From positions 124,001 to 188,000 of the forward strand of contig JAAYDC010000015.1 in NCBI GenBank assembly GCA_012729455.1: a stretch of 64,000 nucleotides of DNA, in the 5' to 3' direction. Under the pieces are notes generated by a model. The model saw nothing but the letters and a program-made list of their open reading frames with translations. It was not told where the DNA came from and searched no databases. Below are positions 5,750 through 20,548 of this stretch, piece after piece. The stretch is from Chloroflexota bacterium. GTDB lineage: Bacteria > Chloroflexota > Anaerolineae > UBA1429. Position 1 is the first letter of the stretch, and every line of letters begins with the position of its first letter. The position numbers and the translations under genes are program-made.

Positions 5750-7453
5750 ATGACCGCTTCACGTTGGATACTGCGGCGCGCCGCTAACCCGGCTTTTACC
5801 GCCTCCAACCCCAACATGGACCCCTTACTGGCTGCCATCCTGTGGGCACGGCGTATCGACACGCCCTCACAGGTGGCGGCCTTTTTCACAGAGCCCTCGC
5901 TCGATTCTTTGGGCGATCCATTCACCATGGCGGGTGCTCCCGCGGCAGTCGAGCGCTTGGTGCTGGCGAGAGAGCGCAGCGAGCTGGTGGCGGTGTATGG
6001 CGATTTCGACGCTGATGGCATCAGCGCTACGGCGCTCATGTCCGGCGAGCTGCGCCGCATGGGGCTGCACGTCCGGCCGTATATTCCCGATCGCTTCAAC
6101 GAGTCGTATGGCCTCAACGACCCTGCCCTCGAGCAGCTGGCGGCCGGTGGGGTGCGCCTGGTAGTGACAGTCGACTGCGGTATTCGTTCCGTAAACGAGG
6201 CCGAGACCGCCGCGCGCTTGGGACTTGATCTGATAATCTCCGACCACCACTCGGTGCCAGATGTGTTGCCGCGTGCGCTGGCTACCATCGACCCCAAACA
6301 GCCCGGCTGCAGCTACCCGTTCAAAGAGCTCTCCGGTGTGGGGGTCGCCTACCAGCTGCTCAGTGCCCTCAGCCAGGCCCTCGGGCAGGGTGCCTTGCCG
6401 CGCGAGGTACTCGAGCTGGTGGCACTCGGCACCGTCTCTGACATTGTGCCGCTGGTGGATGAAAACCGCACGCTGGTGACCCTCGGGCTCGATGCGCTGC
6501 GCAACTCCTCGCGGCCGGGCTTGTTGGCCCTCATGCAGGCTGCCCAGGTCCAGCCGGATACGGTGGATAGCCAGGCGATCGGCTTTCGTCTGGGGCCGCG
6601 CATCAACGCCGCCGGCAGGCTGGCCAACGCAGCGATCGCCCTGCAGCTCTTAACCACCAACCAGCCGGAAGAGGCGGCCGCCCTGGCGCAGCAGCTCTCG
6701 ACCATCAATCAGGAGCGCCAAAGCATGCTGCAGAAACAGGTGTGTCTGGCAGAGGAGATCCTGGCGGATGAGCTCGCCGAACCGGTGCTCTTTGCGGCGC
6801 ACCCCGAATTTCACGAAGGCCTGGTGGGGCTGGTGGCCAGCCGCCTGTGCGAGCAGTATTACCGCCCGGCGCTGGTGTTCAAGCAGGGTGAGCAGAGCGC
6901 TCGGGGGTCGGCACGCAGCATCGAGGGCGTGCACATCACCCAGGCGCTCGACCAGCTCTCGGCGCTGTTGGAGCACTATGGCGGGCACGCCCGTGCCGCC
7001 GGCATGACGGTGCCCAACGCCAACCTGGAAGCCCTGCGATCTGGCCTGAGCGAGCAGTTCGCTGCCGCGTCGGCAACTGAACTGTATACCCCGCGCATCC
7101 TGGTAGATGCCATTGTGCCGCTGCGGATGGTAACGCCCGCATCGCCGCGCGAGCTGCGGGCACTCGAACCCACCGGCGAAGCCAACCCCGAGCCTTCGCT
7201 GGCTACCCTGGGATTGACGCTGCAGCAGATCCGCACGGTCGGGGCTGATGGGCAGCACCTGCGGCTTCAGGTCAGCGATGGGCAACGCTCGTTGCCGGCG
7301 ATCGCCTTCCGCCAGGGGGCACGCATCACCGAATTCAAGCCCGGCCAGGCGATCGACCTGATCTACCAGCCCAGCCTGGACAGCTGGCTAGGGCAGGAGA
7401 CCCTGCAGTTGGTCGTCAGCGACGTTCGAGCGCATCAAGCCAGCGCGCCATGA
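5750..7453 (+). CDS. recJ: Single-stranded-DNA-specific exonuclease RecJ
   Basis: A 567-residue RecJ, the 5'-3' single-strand DNA exonuclease used in recombination and mismatch repair. The DHH domain shows VYGDFDADGISATALMS, TVDCGIRSVNEAETA and the family-defining SDHHSVPD; further metal motifs include GLGPRINAAGR-like FRLGPRINAAGRL. The DHHA1 domain shows FHEGLVGLVASRL and GGHARAAGMTV, and a C-terminal OB-like domain follows. The length is typical. The start ATG at 5750 lies behind GAGG. The stop overlaps an ATG at 7450 (ATGA), a hallmark of coupled translation, yet that downstream frame quickly runs into foreign-looking sequence. Confidence 0.96.
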   Translation: MTASRWILRRAANPAFTASNPNMDPLLAAILWARRIDTPSQVAAFFTEPSLDSLGDPFTMAGAPAAVERLVLARERSELVAVYGDFDADGISATALMSGELRRMGLHVRPYIPDRFNESYGLNDPALEQLAAGGVRLVVTVDCGIRSVNEAETAARLGLDLIISDHHSVPDVLPRALATIDPKQPGCSYPFKELSGVGVAYQLLSALSQALGQGALPREVLELVALGTVSDIVPLVDENRTLVTLGLDALRNSSRPGLLALMQAAQVQPDTVDSQAIGFRLGPRINAAGRLANAAIALQLLTTNQPEEAAALAQQLSTINQERQSMLQKQVCLAEEILADELAEPVLFAAHPEFHEGLVGLVASRLCEQYYRPALVFKQGEQSARGSARSIEGVHITQALDQLSALLEHYGGHARAAGMTVPNANLEALRSGLSEQFAAASATELYTPRILVDAIVPLRMVTPASPRELRALEPTGEANPEPSLATLGLTLQQIRTVGADGQHLRLQVSDGQRSLPAIAFRQGARITEFKPGQAIDLIYQPSLDSWLGQETLQLVVSDVRAHQASAP

Positions 7454-7524
7454 AGCGTTTTATCAAGTGCCCTGTAGACTGCAAACAGCCATTTTTATGG
7501 CAGGCAATACAAGAACTTAAATAA
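7450..7524 (+). pseudogene. Possible 5' stub of the gene that followed recJ
   Basis: An ATG at 7450 overlaps the recJ stop (ATGA) and opens a 24-codon frame beginning MKRFIK and ending at a TAA. The first codons resemble the host, but composition turns AT-rich almost at once. It may be the surviving start of a gene interrupted by the insert to its right. No function can be assigned. Confidence 0.4.
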
Positions 7525-7559
7525 GATGCAGTAGTGGTAAAAACCCGTACTCGTACGGA

Positions 7560-9137
7560 TTACCCAAGCAGTTCTAAAGCCTCCTGCCTTACACGATCCA
7601 AAAGCTCCGCAGATGAATCATATTCATCAAATCCCCGGCAAACCTTTTTGATCAGCTCGTCCGCTTTCTCAAAGGAATACTTTTCACCAAGCATACGGAA
7701 CAACTCATAATCGTATGCTCCCAGCCTCTGCAGGTGGCCCCGCACGCTGTACCAGGGTTTTCTCTCTCCATCCAGCGCCGGATAAACCACAAAGGAATTA
7801 CCCGCTGGATAGCGTATCGTTTTATCATTTCCCGGTAGATAGCAGGTCTCTTTTTCCAATTCCTCATTATGCATATGATATCCCCAATGGAGGAATCCGG
7901 GGCACTGATAATGGTAACATAACCACAGTGTTAATCTGCTTACGGTAAGAGGCAGGTCGATTACCCGATTCATCGTGGATCCCGCCGGAAACCCGCAGGT
8001 ATATATCCACAACTCTTCTCCCATATCCTGTAGTTCACGATAGGTATCATAATATTCTTCAAAAATAGTCTGTTTCACTACCCAGACATCCAATGCGCCG
8101 TAAATTTCCGTTGATTCTACCGGGTCATTGATCTTTACTCCCAGCATCAGTGATCTGCAGATGCCCGACAAAGCTCTGTAGGAAAGACTGTTTGGAAACT
8201 GTGGTTCATCCACAAGGCACTGCATATAGTGTGCTTCCCACTGATTCTCCTGCACACATTTCCAGGCCTTTGTAAAGTATAATTTCAGCTGGCGATAACC
8301 TTCCAGTGTAGTCACACCCACCTGGCGATCCCAGAGAAGCCACTGTTCCGCTTCATCCCATTGTTCAAACCGGGCAACAAAGCCTCCCAGGATCTTTTTA
8401 AATCCCATTTCCATAGCAAGATTTCCCACAAAGGCGGCATGGGTAAAATCAAAATCAATTACCTTGCCTTCTGCATCACGGACAGGAACTCCGGAAGGGA
8501 TCATGAGATAATCATTTCGCATGTCCAGCTGGTTTTCAAGGTATGCGGTTAACACTTCCCTGAAGGCTTCACTGCCGAACTCTACCTGATGCTGTTTTGC
8601 CAATTCCTTGTAATAAATCCAATTGATCATATGGAACGAACTGTCTTTCAAATCCGGCAGTACTGTTTCATATACCTTTAATGTAACCGGAATCTCTATT
8701 TCTTTCTTTCCGATCCTCAAAGAAAGACTGCCCTCATAGCTTTCGGGAACGGCATCTTTCTCCACATCAATCCGAAAGTAAAAAGCTGCTCTGCCTGCGT
8801 ATAATTGTCCGTTTTCCACCGGCTTGGTGATATCGTACACGTCAAAGGGAGCTTTTCTGGTAACAAAATGCTTTACACTCTCATAATCAAAAGTTGTTAG
8901 TATCTTGGCACCACTGTTTTCTCCCACATGGGCAGGCAGGAGCTGATAAACAGCAAGATATCCCGTAAGATGATTCATCCGAACAGTAATCGTTTCTCCT
9001 TCCTGCACCTCCAAATCAGCCAGCACCTGAAAACACACATCACTGTTCCTGGGTGCGTACAATTGGATTTCCGACTTTCCTGCCGGACTGCTGTCAGGAT
9101 AAATCCATTCGTTTTCTGAATATACACAGTAGTTCAT
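7560..9137 (-). CDS. DUF4091 domain protein (GH123-like), probably transferred
   Basis: A 525-residue protein with no signal peptide. A beta-sandwich-like N-terminal part (residues 1-160) is followed by a TIM-barrel-like region with YMQCLVDEPQ (VDEP at residues 309-312) and the DUF4091 C-terminal region (ELWIYTCG, LHWGYH). DUF4091 proteins are related to GH123 glycosidases, so a sugar-cleaving role is plausible but not shown. The ATG at 9137 follows GAGGAG with eight bases spacing. Codon use is much more AT-rich than neighbours and resembles Firmicutes genes, marking it as foreign to this segment. No other sugar gene is directly adjacent. Confidence 0.85.
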   Translation of the reverse strand: MNYCVYSENEWIYPDSSPAGKSEIQLYAPRNSDVCFQVLADLEVQEGETITVRMNHLTGYLAVYQLLPAHVGENSGAKILTTFDYESVKHFVTRKAPFDVYDITKPVENGQLYAGRAAFYFRIDVEKDAVPESYEGSLSLRIGKKEIEIPVTLKVYETVLPDLKDSSFHMINWIYYKELAKQHQVEFGSEAFREVLTAYLENQLDMRNDYLMIPSGVPVRDAEGKVIDFDFTHAAFVGNLAMEMGFKKILGGFVARFEQWDEAEQWLLWDRQVGVTTLEGYRQLKLYFTKAWKCVQENQWEAHYMQCLVDEPQFPNSLSYRALSGICRSLMLGVKINDPVESTEIYGALDVWVVKQTIFEEYYDTYRELQDMGEELWIYTCGFPAGSTMNRVIDLPLTVSRLTLWLCYHYQCPGFLHWGYHMHNEELEKETCYLPGNDKTIRYPAGNSFVVYPALDGERKPWYSVRGHLQRLGAYDYELFRMLGEKYSFEKADELIKKVCRGFDEYDSSAELLDRVRQEALELLG

Positions 9138-9166
9138 GGTTTATCTCCTCTCAAATGTAATCCGCA

Positions 9167-9343
9167 TTACCGAATAAGGATAATAGATCCTCTCCTATCC
9201 TTGGTACATAGCTCGCAAGTTTTTTCCGCCCGCTTTTTAGTGGCAAGATTATTATTGTGCGCGGGCTTCTCTCTATCGGTTTCCTCACACAAGATACTAT
9301 AAACGCTCTTGCGGATTTGATCCACTTCTTTATCTTTCAGCAT
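9167..9343 (-). CDS. Short Lys/Arg-rich relic or small ORF
   Basis: A 58-codon frame (MLKDKEVDQIRKSVYS at the start), open for about 15 further codons upstream without a start. It has AT-rich codons like the DUF4091 gene, two Cys in CELC, and a basic, coil-prone composition. No family is recognised. It probably represents the end of a gene truncated at the insert's right edge. Confidence 0.35.
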   Translation of the reverse strand: MLKDKEVDQIRKSVYSILCEETDREKPAHNNNLATKKRAEKTCELCTKDRRGSIILIR

Positions 9344-9448
9344 GTTATACCAGCGGGATAGCTGCAGCCGTTCGGCAATTAGCTTCTCACGTTCTGGTTA
9401 TATTACCGATTCCTGTGGTCTCTTGTCGATGGCTGGGCCTGTCCATAG

Positions 9449-9634
9449 TATCTAACCAATCTAGTACCTGCATTTGGCGAGCCGGCGGGTGTGGTGTACT
9501 ATCTGGAGTCGAACTACGCACCGCCAGCAACCGCCGCGCAAATCGGCGCACAGAATCCGGAGAGGGTCGCCCAGGGTCGCGCCTCCCCTCCTCGCACGCG
9601 TACCGCTAGACGTAATTGGAGGATTATGGCATGA
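9449..9634 (+). pseudogene. 3' fragment of a gene upstream of carA
   Basis: An open frame with no start runs from just after a TAG at 9446 to a TGA at 9632-9634 that overlaps the carA ATG (ATGA). From about 9473 its codons are strongly host-like; the peptide includes PAFGEPAGVVYYLESNYAP and ends RRNWRIMA. Such codon use and the coupled stop suggest a genuine C-terminus whose 5' part is missing. The family is not recognised. Confidence 0.5.
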
Positions 9635-10773
9635 GCGCACGTCAGGGCTTGCTCGCCCTCGAAGATGGCACCACCCTGATCGGTCGTTCGGTGGCAGCCG
9701 AGGGCGAATGGACGGGCGAGATCGTCTTTGTCACCTCGATGCTGGGCTACCAGGAGATCATCACCGACCCATCCTTCTGGGGCCAGATGGTGGTGTTCAC
9801 CTACCCGCACATTGGTAACGCGGGGGTCAACCCGCAGGATAATGAATCTCACCAGCCCTATGTGCGCGCCGTCATCGCGCGGCAGATATGCACCCAACCC
9901 AGCAACTGGCGCGCCAGCGAATCCCTGCCCGACTATCTGAGCCGCCATAACATCCTTGCACTCGACAACATCGACTGCCGCCATCTGACACTGCTACTGC
10001 GCAGCAAGGGCATCATGCGTGCGGCTATCTCCACCACCAACCTCGATCCTGACCGCCTGGTTGAGATGGCGCGTAATGCCCCGCAGATGATCGACCTGCG
10101 TCCGGCTTCCAAAGTCTGCAGCCCGCAGATAACCGCGTGGGATGAAGCCCTGGTGGCCGAATGGCGGCCGCCGGCGCTGCACCCGGGCGCCACCAACCCG
10201 CACGTGGTGGTGATCGATTGCGGCGCAAAACACAGCATCATGCGCGCGCTGGTCTCGTGCGGCGCCAGGGTCACTGTTGTGCCGTATGACACCAGTGCTG
10301 AGGCAATCCTGCAGCTCGCCCCGGATGGCGTGTTGGTCAGTAACGGCCCCGGCGACCCGACCACCTGGGAACCGACCGTCAACAGCATCCGCGCGTTGTT
10401 GGGCAAGCTGCCCCTCTTTGGTATCTGCCTGGGGCACCATCTGATTGCATTAGCCTGCGGACGCAGCACCGAACGTCTGCTCTTTGGCCACCATGGCGAT
10501 AACCAGCCCGTACAGCGCTATGAGGGCGGCATGGTCGAGATCACCGCACAAAACCACCACTATGTGGTCGCCTCTGATGCCCCAGCCGGCAGCCCGCTGG
10601 TGAACACGACTCGCAACCTCAACGACGGCACAGTCGAGAGCGGCGCGTCGGAAGCGCTGCGCATCACCTCGGTGCAGTATCATCCCGAGGCATCACCCGG
10701 TCCGCACGATAGCGCCTACCTGCTGGCTGAATTTGTGAGCTCGCTGGTACCCAACCAGCAGGCGGAGGCCTGA
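9631..10773 (+). CDS. carA: Carbamoyl-phosphate synthase small subunit
   Basis: A 380-residue glutaminase subunit that hydrolyses glutamine and passes ammonia to CarB for carbamoyl phosphate (arginine and pyrimidine pathways). The N-terminal CarA domain shows [19 protein letters not shown]; the class I amidotransferase domain has [10 protein letters not shown], the nucleophile Cys266 in FGICLGHH, and His351/Glu353 in [11 protein letters not shown] chose the ATG at 9631 because GGAGG at 9618-9622 is well spaced; a TTG at 9616 is a poorer start. carB follows after four bases. Its natural promoter may have been displaced by the upstream insert. Confidence 0.96.
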
Positions 10774-18991: not shown

Positions 18992-19255
18992 TTACCAGCC
19001 GTGCTTGGCTGCTTTACGCCACTTTTCGATATCGGATTTCGGGGTATAGTTGGGAGCCGGCGCTTCGGAACCGCCATCGTCGTCGTCATCGCCGAACGAT
19101 CCCTCTTCGCCGCGCATGGCAAACCGAGAGATCGCGCGCTCGGCTGGTGTTTCACACTCTGGGCAGGGCACACAGATCTCATCAGCCGCACTGACTTTTA
19201 ACAAGCGTTCAAAGCGCAGCTTGCATTTGGGGCAATAGTATTCGTAAAGCGGCAT
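18992..19255 (-). CDS. FmdB-type zinc ribbon protein
   Basis: An 87-residue protein of the FmdB regulatory family. It starts MPLYEYYCPKC and has a second Cys cluster CVPCPEC, which together form a zinc ribbon in the first 35 residues. A very acidic stretch (residues 57-62) and a hydrophilic tail follow. The family's function is unsettled, with proposed regulatory roles. It is convergent with glnE and 12 bases beyond the MFS gene end's opposite side, so it may be cotranscribed with the MFS permease. Confidence 0.88.
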   Translation of the reverse strand: MPLYEYYCPKCKLRFERLLKVSAADEICVPCPECETPAERAISRFAMRGEEGSFGDDDDDGGSEAPAPNYTPKSDIEKWRKAAKHGW

Positions 19256-19267
19256 ATCCAGCTCCTG

Positions 19268-20548
19268 TTAGTCTCGCGGCAGCCAAAGGAAAAACGCGGT
19301 CGTCACGATTTGTGCGATGCCACCCACCAGCATGGTGGTGCGCACCCCCCAGATGCTCATCAGCGCCGCGCCGATCAGCGGACCCAGGAACATGCAAAAG
19401 TTGGCTTCCATGCTCCAAAAGGCCCCAAAGAGCGCCTGACGTTCGGCCGAAAGGGTGCCCAGCATGATATCAAAGAGGGCGACATCCACCCCTGCGATGG
19501 TGGCACCCCACAACACAGCGAGCGGCAGGATCCACCAGGCGGAGGGTATCAGCGAAGAAAGCATCACATAAACCCCCAAGCCGGCAGCGCAGATGTAGAG
19601 CATGCGGCGATGCCCAAAGCGGTTGGCCACGCGTCCCCAGAAGAGGTACCCCACTACCAGTGCCAGCGATCCGAGCGTACCGCGCAGGCCGATGAGGGTG
19701 TCGGCTGCCTCGAGCTCGTTGACCCACAGCAAAGTATAGAGCGGAATCGGCAGGTAAAGCGCGATGCGATACAGGAATGTTACCGCCTGATAGACCATAA
19801 AGGGTTTGTGAGTCATCACCGGCTTTATATAGTTTGCCACCCGCTCACGCAGCGGCAGGCTAGAGGGTGACCTTACTACAGGTGTAGAGTCTACCACGAT
19901 GCGCCGGAAAAAGAGCGGGTCGATCAGGCCAAAGATGAACGAGATAAAGAACACCAGCTGATAGTTGATCGGAAAACTGACGTGGTCGAGCATCCAACCA
20001 AAAAAGGCAGAGGATAGCGCCATCGCGAGCGACATGAGCGCCCAACGGGTGCCGTTAACCCTGGCGCGGTTCTGCGCCGAGACGGCCATTGACATCACTG
20101 CCGTCCAAGCAGGGATCGCTACCGCCTCCGCCAGTACTTTGGCTACCCAAATCCCCACCAGCACGTATGGCAGCTGTTCAACCGCCACGAAAAAAGGTGC
20201 AATGGCACAGGCGAGGTATGCCATCAGCACCACTGTCACCCATTTGATGCGCACCTTGACAAGGTCGCTGCTGCGCTCGGCGACCAGTGCGCCCGGTAAC
20301 AGGAACAAGACAGCCGCCAGCGAAGGCCCAGAGGTCAGCCAGCTGATCAGCGTTGGTGACGCCCCCAACCGCGCCAGAAAGACCGGTAAAAAGGCCACAA
20401 TGCCACCGCTTGCCACTCCCACCATGGTCGTGTTAAAGTACAGGAGCTGCATGTTGCGCTCTTCCTGGTTTTGGGGGCGTAGCTTTAGGGCATTGGAGAG
20501 GGCCAGCCAGACGCGTCCGACGCCCTCTCGCAGCGAAAGGGTCGTCAT
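19268..20548 (-). CDS. MFS transporter
   Basis: A 426-residue major facilitator protein with about twelve hydrophobic segments, for example GIVAFLPVFLARLGASP (helix 1) and LALVVGYLFWGRVANRFGHR, the latter a typical loop motif. The start ATG at 20548 (MTTLSLREGV) was chosen because the frame upstream is not membrane-like and would run into the rfbC region. The substrate is unknown. It is divergent from rfbC, sharing a 93-base intergenic region. Confidence 0.85.
   Translation of the reverse strand: MTTLSLREGVGRVWLALSNALKLRPQNQEERNMQLLYFNTTMVGVASGGIVAFLPVFLARLGASPTLISWLTSGPSLAAVLFLLPGALVAERSSDLVKVRIKWVTVVLMAYLACAIAPFFVAVEQLPYVLVGIWVAKVLAEAVAIPAWTAVMSMAVSAQNRARVNGTRWALMSLAMALSSAFFGWMLDHVSFPINYQLVFFISFIFGLIDPLFFRRIVVDSTPVVRSPSSLPLRERVANYIKPVMTHKPFMVYQAVTFLYRIALYLPIPLYTLLWVNELEAADTLIGLRGTLGSLALVVGYLFWGRVANRFGHRRMLYICAAGLGVYVMLSSLIPSAWWILPLAVLWGATIAGVDVALFDIMLGTLSAERQALFGAFWSMEANFCMFLGPLIGAALMSIWGVRTTMLVGGIAQIVTTAFFLWLPRD

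Follow-up and report, generated by a model that had tools for sequence, protein, structure and literature searches.

The region of interest lies in a window of 64 kb (bases 124001-188000 of contig C11) taken from an assembly, G000, of 2.64 Mb in 30 contigs that is rated 99.2% complete. Between recJ and carA the GC profile falls to 0.44-0.46, compared with 0.61-0.66 in the sequence around it, and maximum-likelihood fitting of two-state GC change points placed the edges of this low-GC island at 7450 and 9475, the left edge being the recJ stop codon. The features assigned to the locus, in window coordinates, are as follows.

5750-7453, plus strand: recJ, intact, with Pfam DHH, DHHA1 and RecJ_OB domains
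7450-9475, no strand: low-GC foreign island of ~2.03 kb, from GC change points and the GC profile
7560-9137, minus strand: GH123/DUF4091 gene, intact, 525 aa (Pfam PF13320, E 1.9e-26)
9170-9400 (core match 9275-9394), minus strand: C-terminal remnant of a MobA/MobL-type relaxase, from protein and DNA matches to Lachnospiraceae
9476-9630, plus strand: host-GC stretch before carA with no recognisable coding content, from homologue searches and codon log-odds near 0
9631-10773, plus strand: carA, intact, with Pfam CPSase_sm_chain and GATase domains

Sliding GC and the change points bear out the AT-rich insert that the original prediction had placed between recJ and carA, and the DUF4091 gene reported within it proved to be a complete ORF with a GH123_cat domain (PF13320, formerly DUF4091). 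The island is the sole place in the window where 1-kb GC drops below 50%. Elsewhere in the window, at 19251-20000, a strong AT skew (~0.30) was observed with unchanged GC, and this stretch looks like ordinary coding DNA. The GH123 gene is the only ORF of size in the island, which contains no integrase, and neither a transposase, terminal inverted repeats nor a target duplication was found there. No direct repeat of at least 7 bases is shared by the two edges, and, given the lack of an integrase, direct repeat or target duplication at those edges, the ends of any element cannot be defined. The earlier statement that insertion-sequence hallmarks are missing is thus correct as far as IS elements, terminal repeats and duplicated target sites are concerned, but the relic of a mobilization gene is present. 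No Rfam matches were obtained in 7300-9900 and no terminators in the island, while promoter-like sites in the island (7, with 3.5 expected) were not informative.

The 525-aa product scored 93.7 bits against GH123_cat, for which the Pfam gathering score is 23.1. Its nearest solved structure is 8k2j (E 8.3e-41, or E 1.6e-61 when a five-member profile was used), and the residues D309-E310 pair with the DE of both 8k2j and 8q8h and are unchanged across the five aligned proteins. A consecutive catalytic DE motif has been described for the GH123 family (PMC11087588). The island protein resembles GH123 beta-N-acetylgalactosaminidases in its domain, its DE pair and its long alignments to solved members, of which 8k2j is the best, and it differs from those solved members in belonging to a gut-Clostridia subclade that has no solved structure. 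It is a probable beta-N-acetylgalactosaminidase and, judging from its family membership, would most likely cleave beta-linked N-acetylgalactosamine by substrate-assisted catalysis, if expressed.

The relationship of the GH123 gene to genes of other bacteria was examined at the level of codon usage, sequence identity and phylogeny. The GC3 of the gene is 0.47, compared with 0.77-0.79 in recJ, carA and carB, and in codon usage the gene resembles the Clostridia homologues and not the host genes. A pattern scan of one genome per species across ~85,000 prokaryote species, which picks up close relatives only, gave four relatives with 54-65% identity across the whole protein, each of them in a hindgut MAG of sheep, goat or roe deer that carries the label Lachnospiraceae, Clostridia or Oscillospiraceae. 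The nearest relative found was in a sheep-colon Lachnospiraceae MAG, at no more than 65% identity over the full length, with other ruminant-gut Clostridia MAGs at 54-64%. The next best in 397 donor-family genomes was 39%. In the host class (249 genomes), the best matches covered part of the protein at ~30% identity; one reached 41%, but over 106 residues. The host-class matches include the host's own distant GH123-like protein on contig C7 (G000:C7:31153-31902), which is 28% identical and groups with proteins of its class. In a maximum-likelihood tree the window protein fell inside a gut-Clostridia clade with support of 100/99, and the host-class proteins stood apart (100/100). Phage homologues of GH123 amounted to one partial match of 27.5%. 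The identities, the tree and the codon usage all uphold the proposal that a low-GC bacterium recently passed on this DNA, and they support gut Clostridia, on the Lachnospiraceae side, as the likely donor group.

Next to the GH123 gene, the minus strand at 9400-9170 reads EREKLIAERLQLSRWYNMLKDKEVDQIRKSVYSIL and so on. Five donor-family genomes contain DNA that is 80-86% identical to the relic over stretches of 38-51 bases and, in those that allow the frame to be read, it corresponds to the C-terminal end of a relaxase that we take to be of MobA/MobL type, a name given from reading of the full-length sequence and not from a curated match. At the protein level, the relic aligned with residues 457-498 of a Lachnospiraceae relaxase at 55% identity with an E of 0.016, a weak and short match, the DNA matches being stronger. 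Curated family models (NCBIfam, PHROGs) gave nothing significant for the relic, and no plasmid homologues of it were found. The relic frame that had been noticed in the insert can be identified, from the DNA and protein matches together, as a relaxase C terminus. When the full-length relaxase was used as a query against the window genome, remnants only were detected, at the island and at C12:2139-2465 (E 2e-5 at best). The latter is a rearranged pseudogene that immediately follows a Gfo/Idh gene, itself intact, and flanks a low-GC block in which an ABC transporter and a MerR regulator are encoded, so that relics of mobilization genes border two separate foreign blocks.

The recJ-carA interval in relatives is far from empty, the spacing being ~12 kb in G001, 9 kb in G012 and 6.2 kb in G008. 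The G001 interval contains, by names taken from sequence reading, a pspA-like gene, genes for solute-binding and VWA proteins, a glutamate-synthase-like set (a 504-aa FMN protein, a ferredoxin, an FAD oxidoreductase, a class-II amidotransferase and a GXGXG protein) and, immediately upstream of carA, a small nadE. The G008 interval comprises the glutamate-synthase-like set together with nadE, and the solute-binding and VWA genes of that genome are on another contig. A combined query of PspA, one solute-binding protein, VWA, the 504-aa protein and small NadE detected none of the five in the window genome; its single match there was one of 37% to a 567-aa NadE encoded elsewhere, a type that the relatives have too. 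A recJ-GH123-carA layout was present in none of the three family members that carry recJ and carA on one contig. On this comparison, the recJ-carA site is apparently a multi-gene interval that has been replaced. The earlier idea that a gene once lay between recJ and carA was right in that something was replaced, but the relatives hold a multi-gene block there and not one gene. A nadE remnant before carA was also considered, and was rejected on finding no similarity to the relatives' nadE or to other DNA upstream of their carA.

The interpretation that best fits these data is that the segment is what decay has left of a mobilizable genomic island from gut Clostridia, with its GH123 cargo still open and the conserved block lost at the same place, and this we consider probable. 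An element with a MobA/MobL-type relaxase would have carried the GH123 gene as cargo out of gut Clostridia and would have entered, presumably, by conjugation. It could then have integrated next to recJ, or a piece of it could have been captured there by illegitimate recombination, after which the relaxase would have been truncated and the GH123 gene would have stayed open. The conserved recJ-carA block would have been lost in the same lineage, perhaps with the insertion or perhaps before it. The island is like the integrative and mobilizable elements of Bacillota (reviewed in PMC5704250) in having a relaxase remnant beside cargo, with another such remnant at a distant site of the same assembly; it is unlike them in that its relaxase is truncated to the C-terminal end and no integrase or attachment site was found, and it is thus a remnant and not an element. 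It also resembles ordinary genomic islands in metagenome-assembled genomes, being short, compositionally foreign and intergenic with one intact cargo gene, but differs from them in coinciding with the loss of a conserved multi-gene block.

It could be, alternatively, that naked Clostridia DNA was taken up by transformation or through a phage or vesicle and joined by illegitimate repair, in which case the relaxase relic would be a passenger from the donor chromosome. The absence of an integrase and of attachment repeats is in keeping with such an event, as is the occurrence of a similar relaxase in several Lachnospiraceae genomes, since a random fragment could contain one. The presence of one relaxase remnant at the edge of each of two separate low-GC blocks in one genome, however, favours mobilizable elements, and uptake of naked DNA was judged somewhat unlikely.

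The reading of the segment as a decayed island gains from the other low-GC, Clostridia-like blocks in the genome, which have matches of 50-74% in Clostridia genomes. A contig-end glycosyltransferase is 74% identical to a protein in G041, the same sheep-colon Lachnospiraceae MAG, three contig-end sugar-metabolism genes have matches of 54-60% in G044, and a contig-end LysR regulator one of 50% in G308; in six family members, none of these genes exceeded 35%. Clostridia-like accessory genes, the glycosyltransferase among them, were seen at ends of C24, C13 (twice) and C30 (L153, L144, L104 and L159, respectively). Of the 60 contig ends, roughly a dozen bear 0.5-4 kb of low-GC sequence, and four low-GC stretches were found in the ~0.4 Mb of contig interior sampled. 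That many of the blocks sit at contig ends speaks against the decayed-island reading, contig ends being where assembly errors also accumulate.

An assembly artefact would mean that the true recJ-carA block remained unassembled and that its position was filled by a fragment from a co-occurring Clostridia genome. Several contig ends share overlaps of exactly 127 bases, most likely the sign of a de Bruijn assembly of short reads at k=127, and the low-GC ends could be chimeric tips; the absence of the replaced block from an assembly rated so nearly complete also fits an artefact. Against this, the assembly would have had to contain two independent false joins around one foreign piece, between genes that are near neighbours in relatives, and the window contains no N throughout its 64 kb. 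The host genes beside the blocks examined are uninterrupted, those facing the blocks at five ends (GntR, AHSA1, DtxR-type, Gfo/Idh and MoxR) and in the window being complete by domain coverage, although this is not a formal test; in addition, a tRNA-Arg gene marks the exact end of the C1 block and tmRNA adjoins the C3 block, whereas random joins would mostly cut genes. Moreover, a low-GC McrBC system is split across the starts of C3 (G000:C3, L095:1-1508) and C11 (G000:C11, L161:1-1790): McrB breaks off at its Walker A motif on C3 and resumes with the next residues on C11, followed by McrC. This link rests on protein reading, the two ends sharing no exact overlap, but McrB appears to continue from C3 into C11, so that the McrBC island would have host sequence on both sides. 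At the end of C6 (L135), a frameshifted 3' fragment of a gene resembling an rlmD/rumA-type methyltransferase borders a low-GC block; rumA serves streptococcal elements as an integration site. With its neighbours intact and two coordinated false joins required, the chimeric assembly join that had been offered as an alternative was judged unlikely.

The original prediction had drawn on apparent coupled-gene junctions at either end of the insert to propose that it splits a gene, and neither junction sustained this. On the left, the ATG over the recJ stop opens just 24 codons. On the right, the frame at 9449-9634 overlaps the carA start codon by ATGA, as a surviving C terminus might, but the probability of its being open by chance is P ~0.13 and its GC3 of 0.57-0.65 and codon log-odds of ~0 reveal no host codon bias. 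The lack of a homologue for this 3' fragment had itself been named as evidence against a split gene, and no convincing one was found in 249 class genomes (best E 0.004, over 249 separate genome searches), nor does the fragment resemble the nadE that precedes carA in relatives. With recJ and carA both intact, the splitting of a single pre-existing gene whose C terminus survives at 9449-9634 is highly improbable.

The apparent gene-splitting insert is in this way resolved as what is probably a decayed foreign island, and the genome is flagged for frequent Clostridia-derived blocks. The locus represents horizontal gene transfer that is ordinary, though extensive, and each of its components (GH123 enzyme, mobilizable element, foreign island) belongs to a known kind; it rises above the routine only in the apparent frequency of Clostridia islands in the genome and in the coincidence with loss of a conserved block. 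It is possible, and we put it forward tentatively, that the lineage is a habitual recipient of distant Clostridia DNA with many recent islands, one arrival being linked to loss of the recJ-carA block with its glutamate-synthase-like genes and small NAD synthetase. If true, the genome would provide a useful case of repeated transfer between gut Clostridia and a distant high-GC lineage and of the replacement of a conserved gene block.
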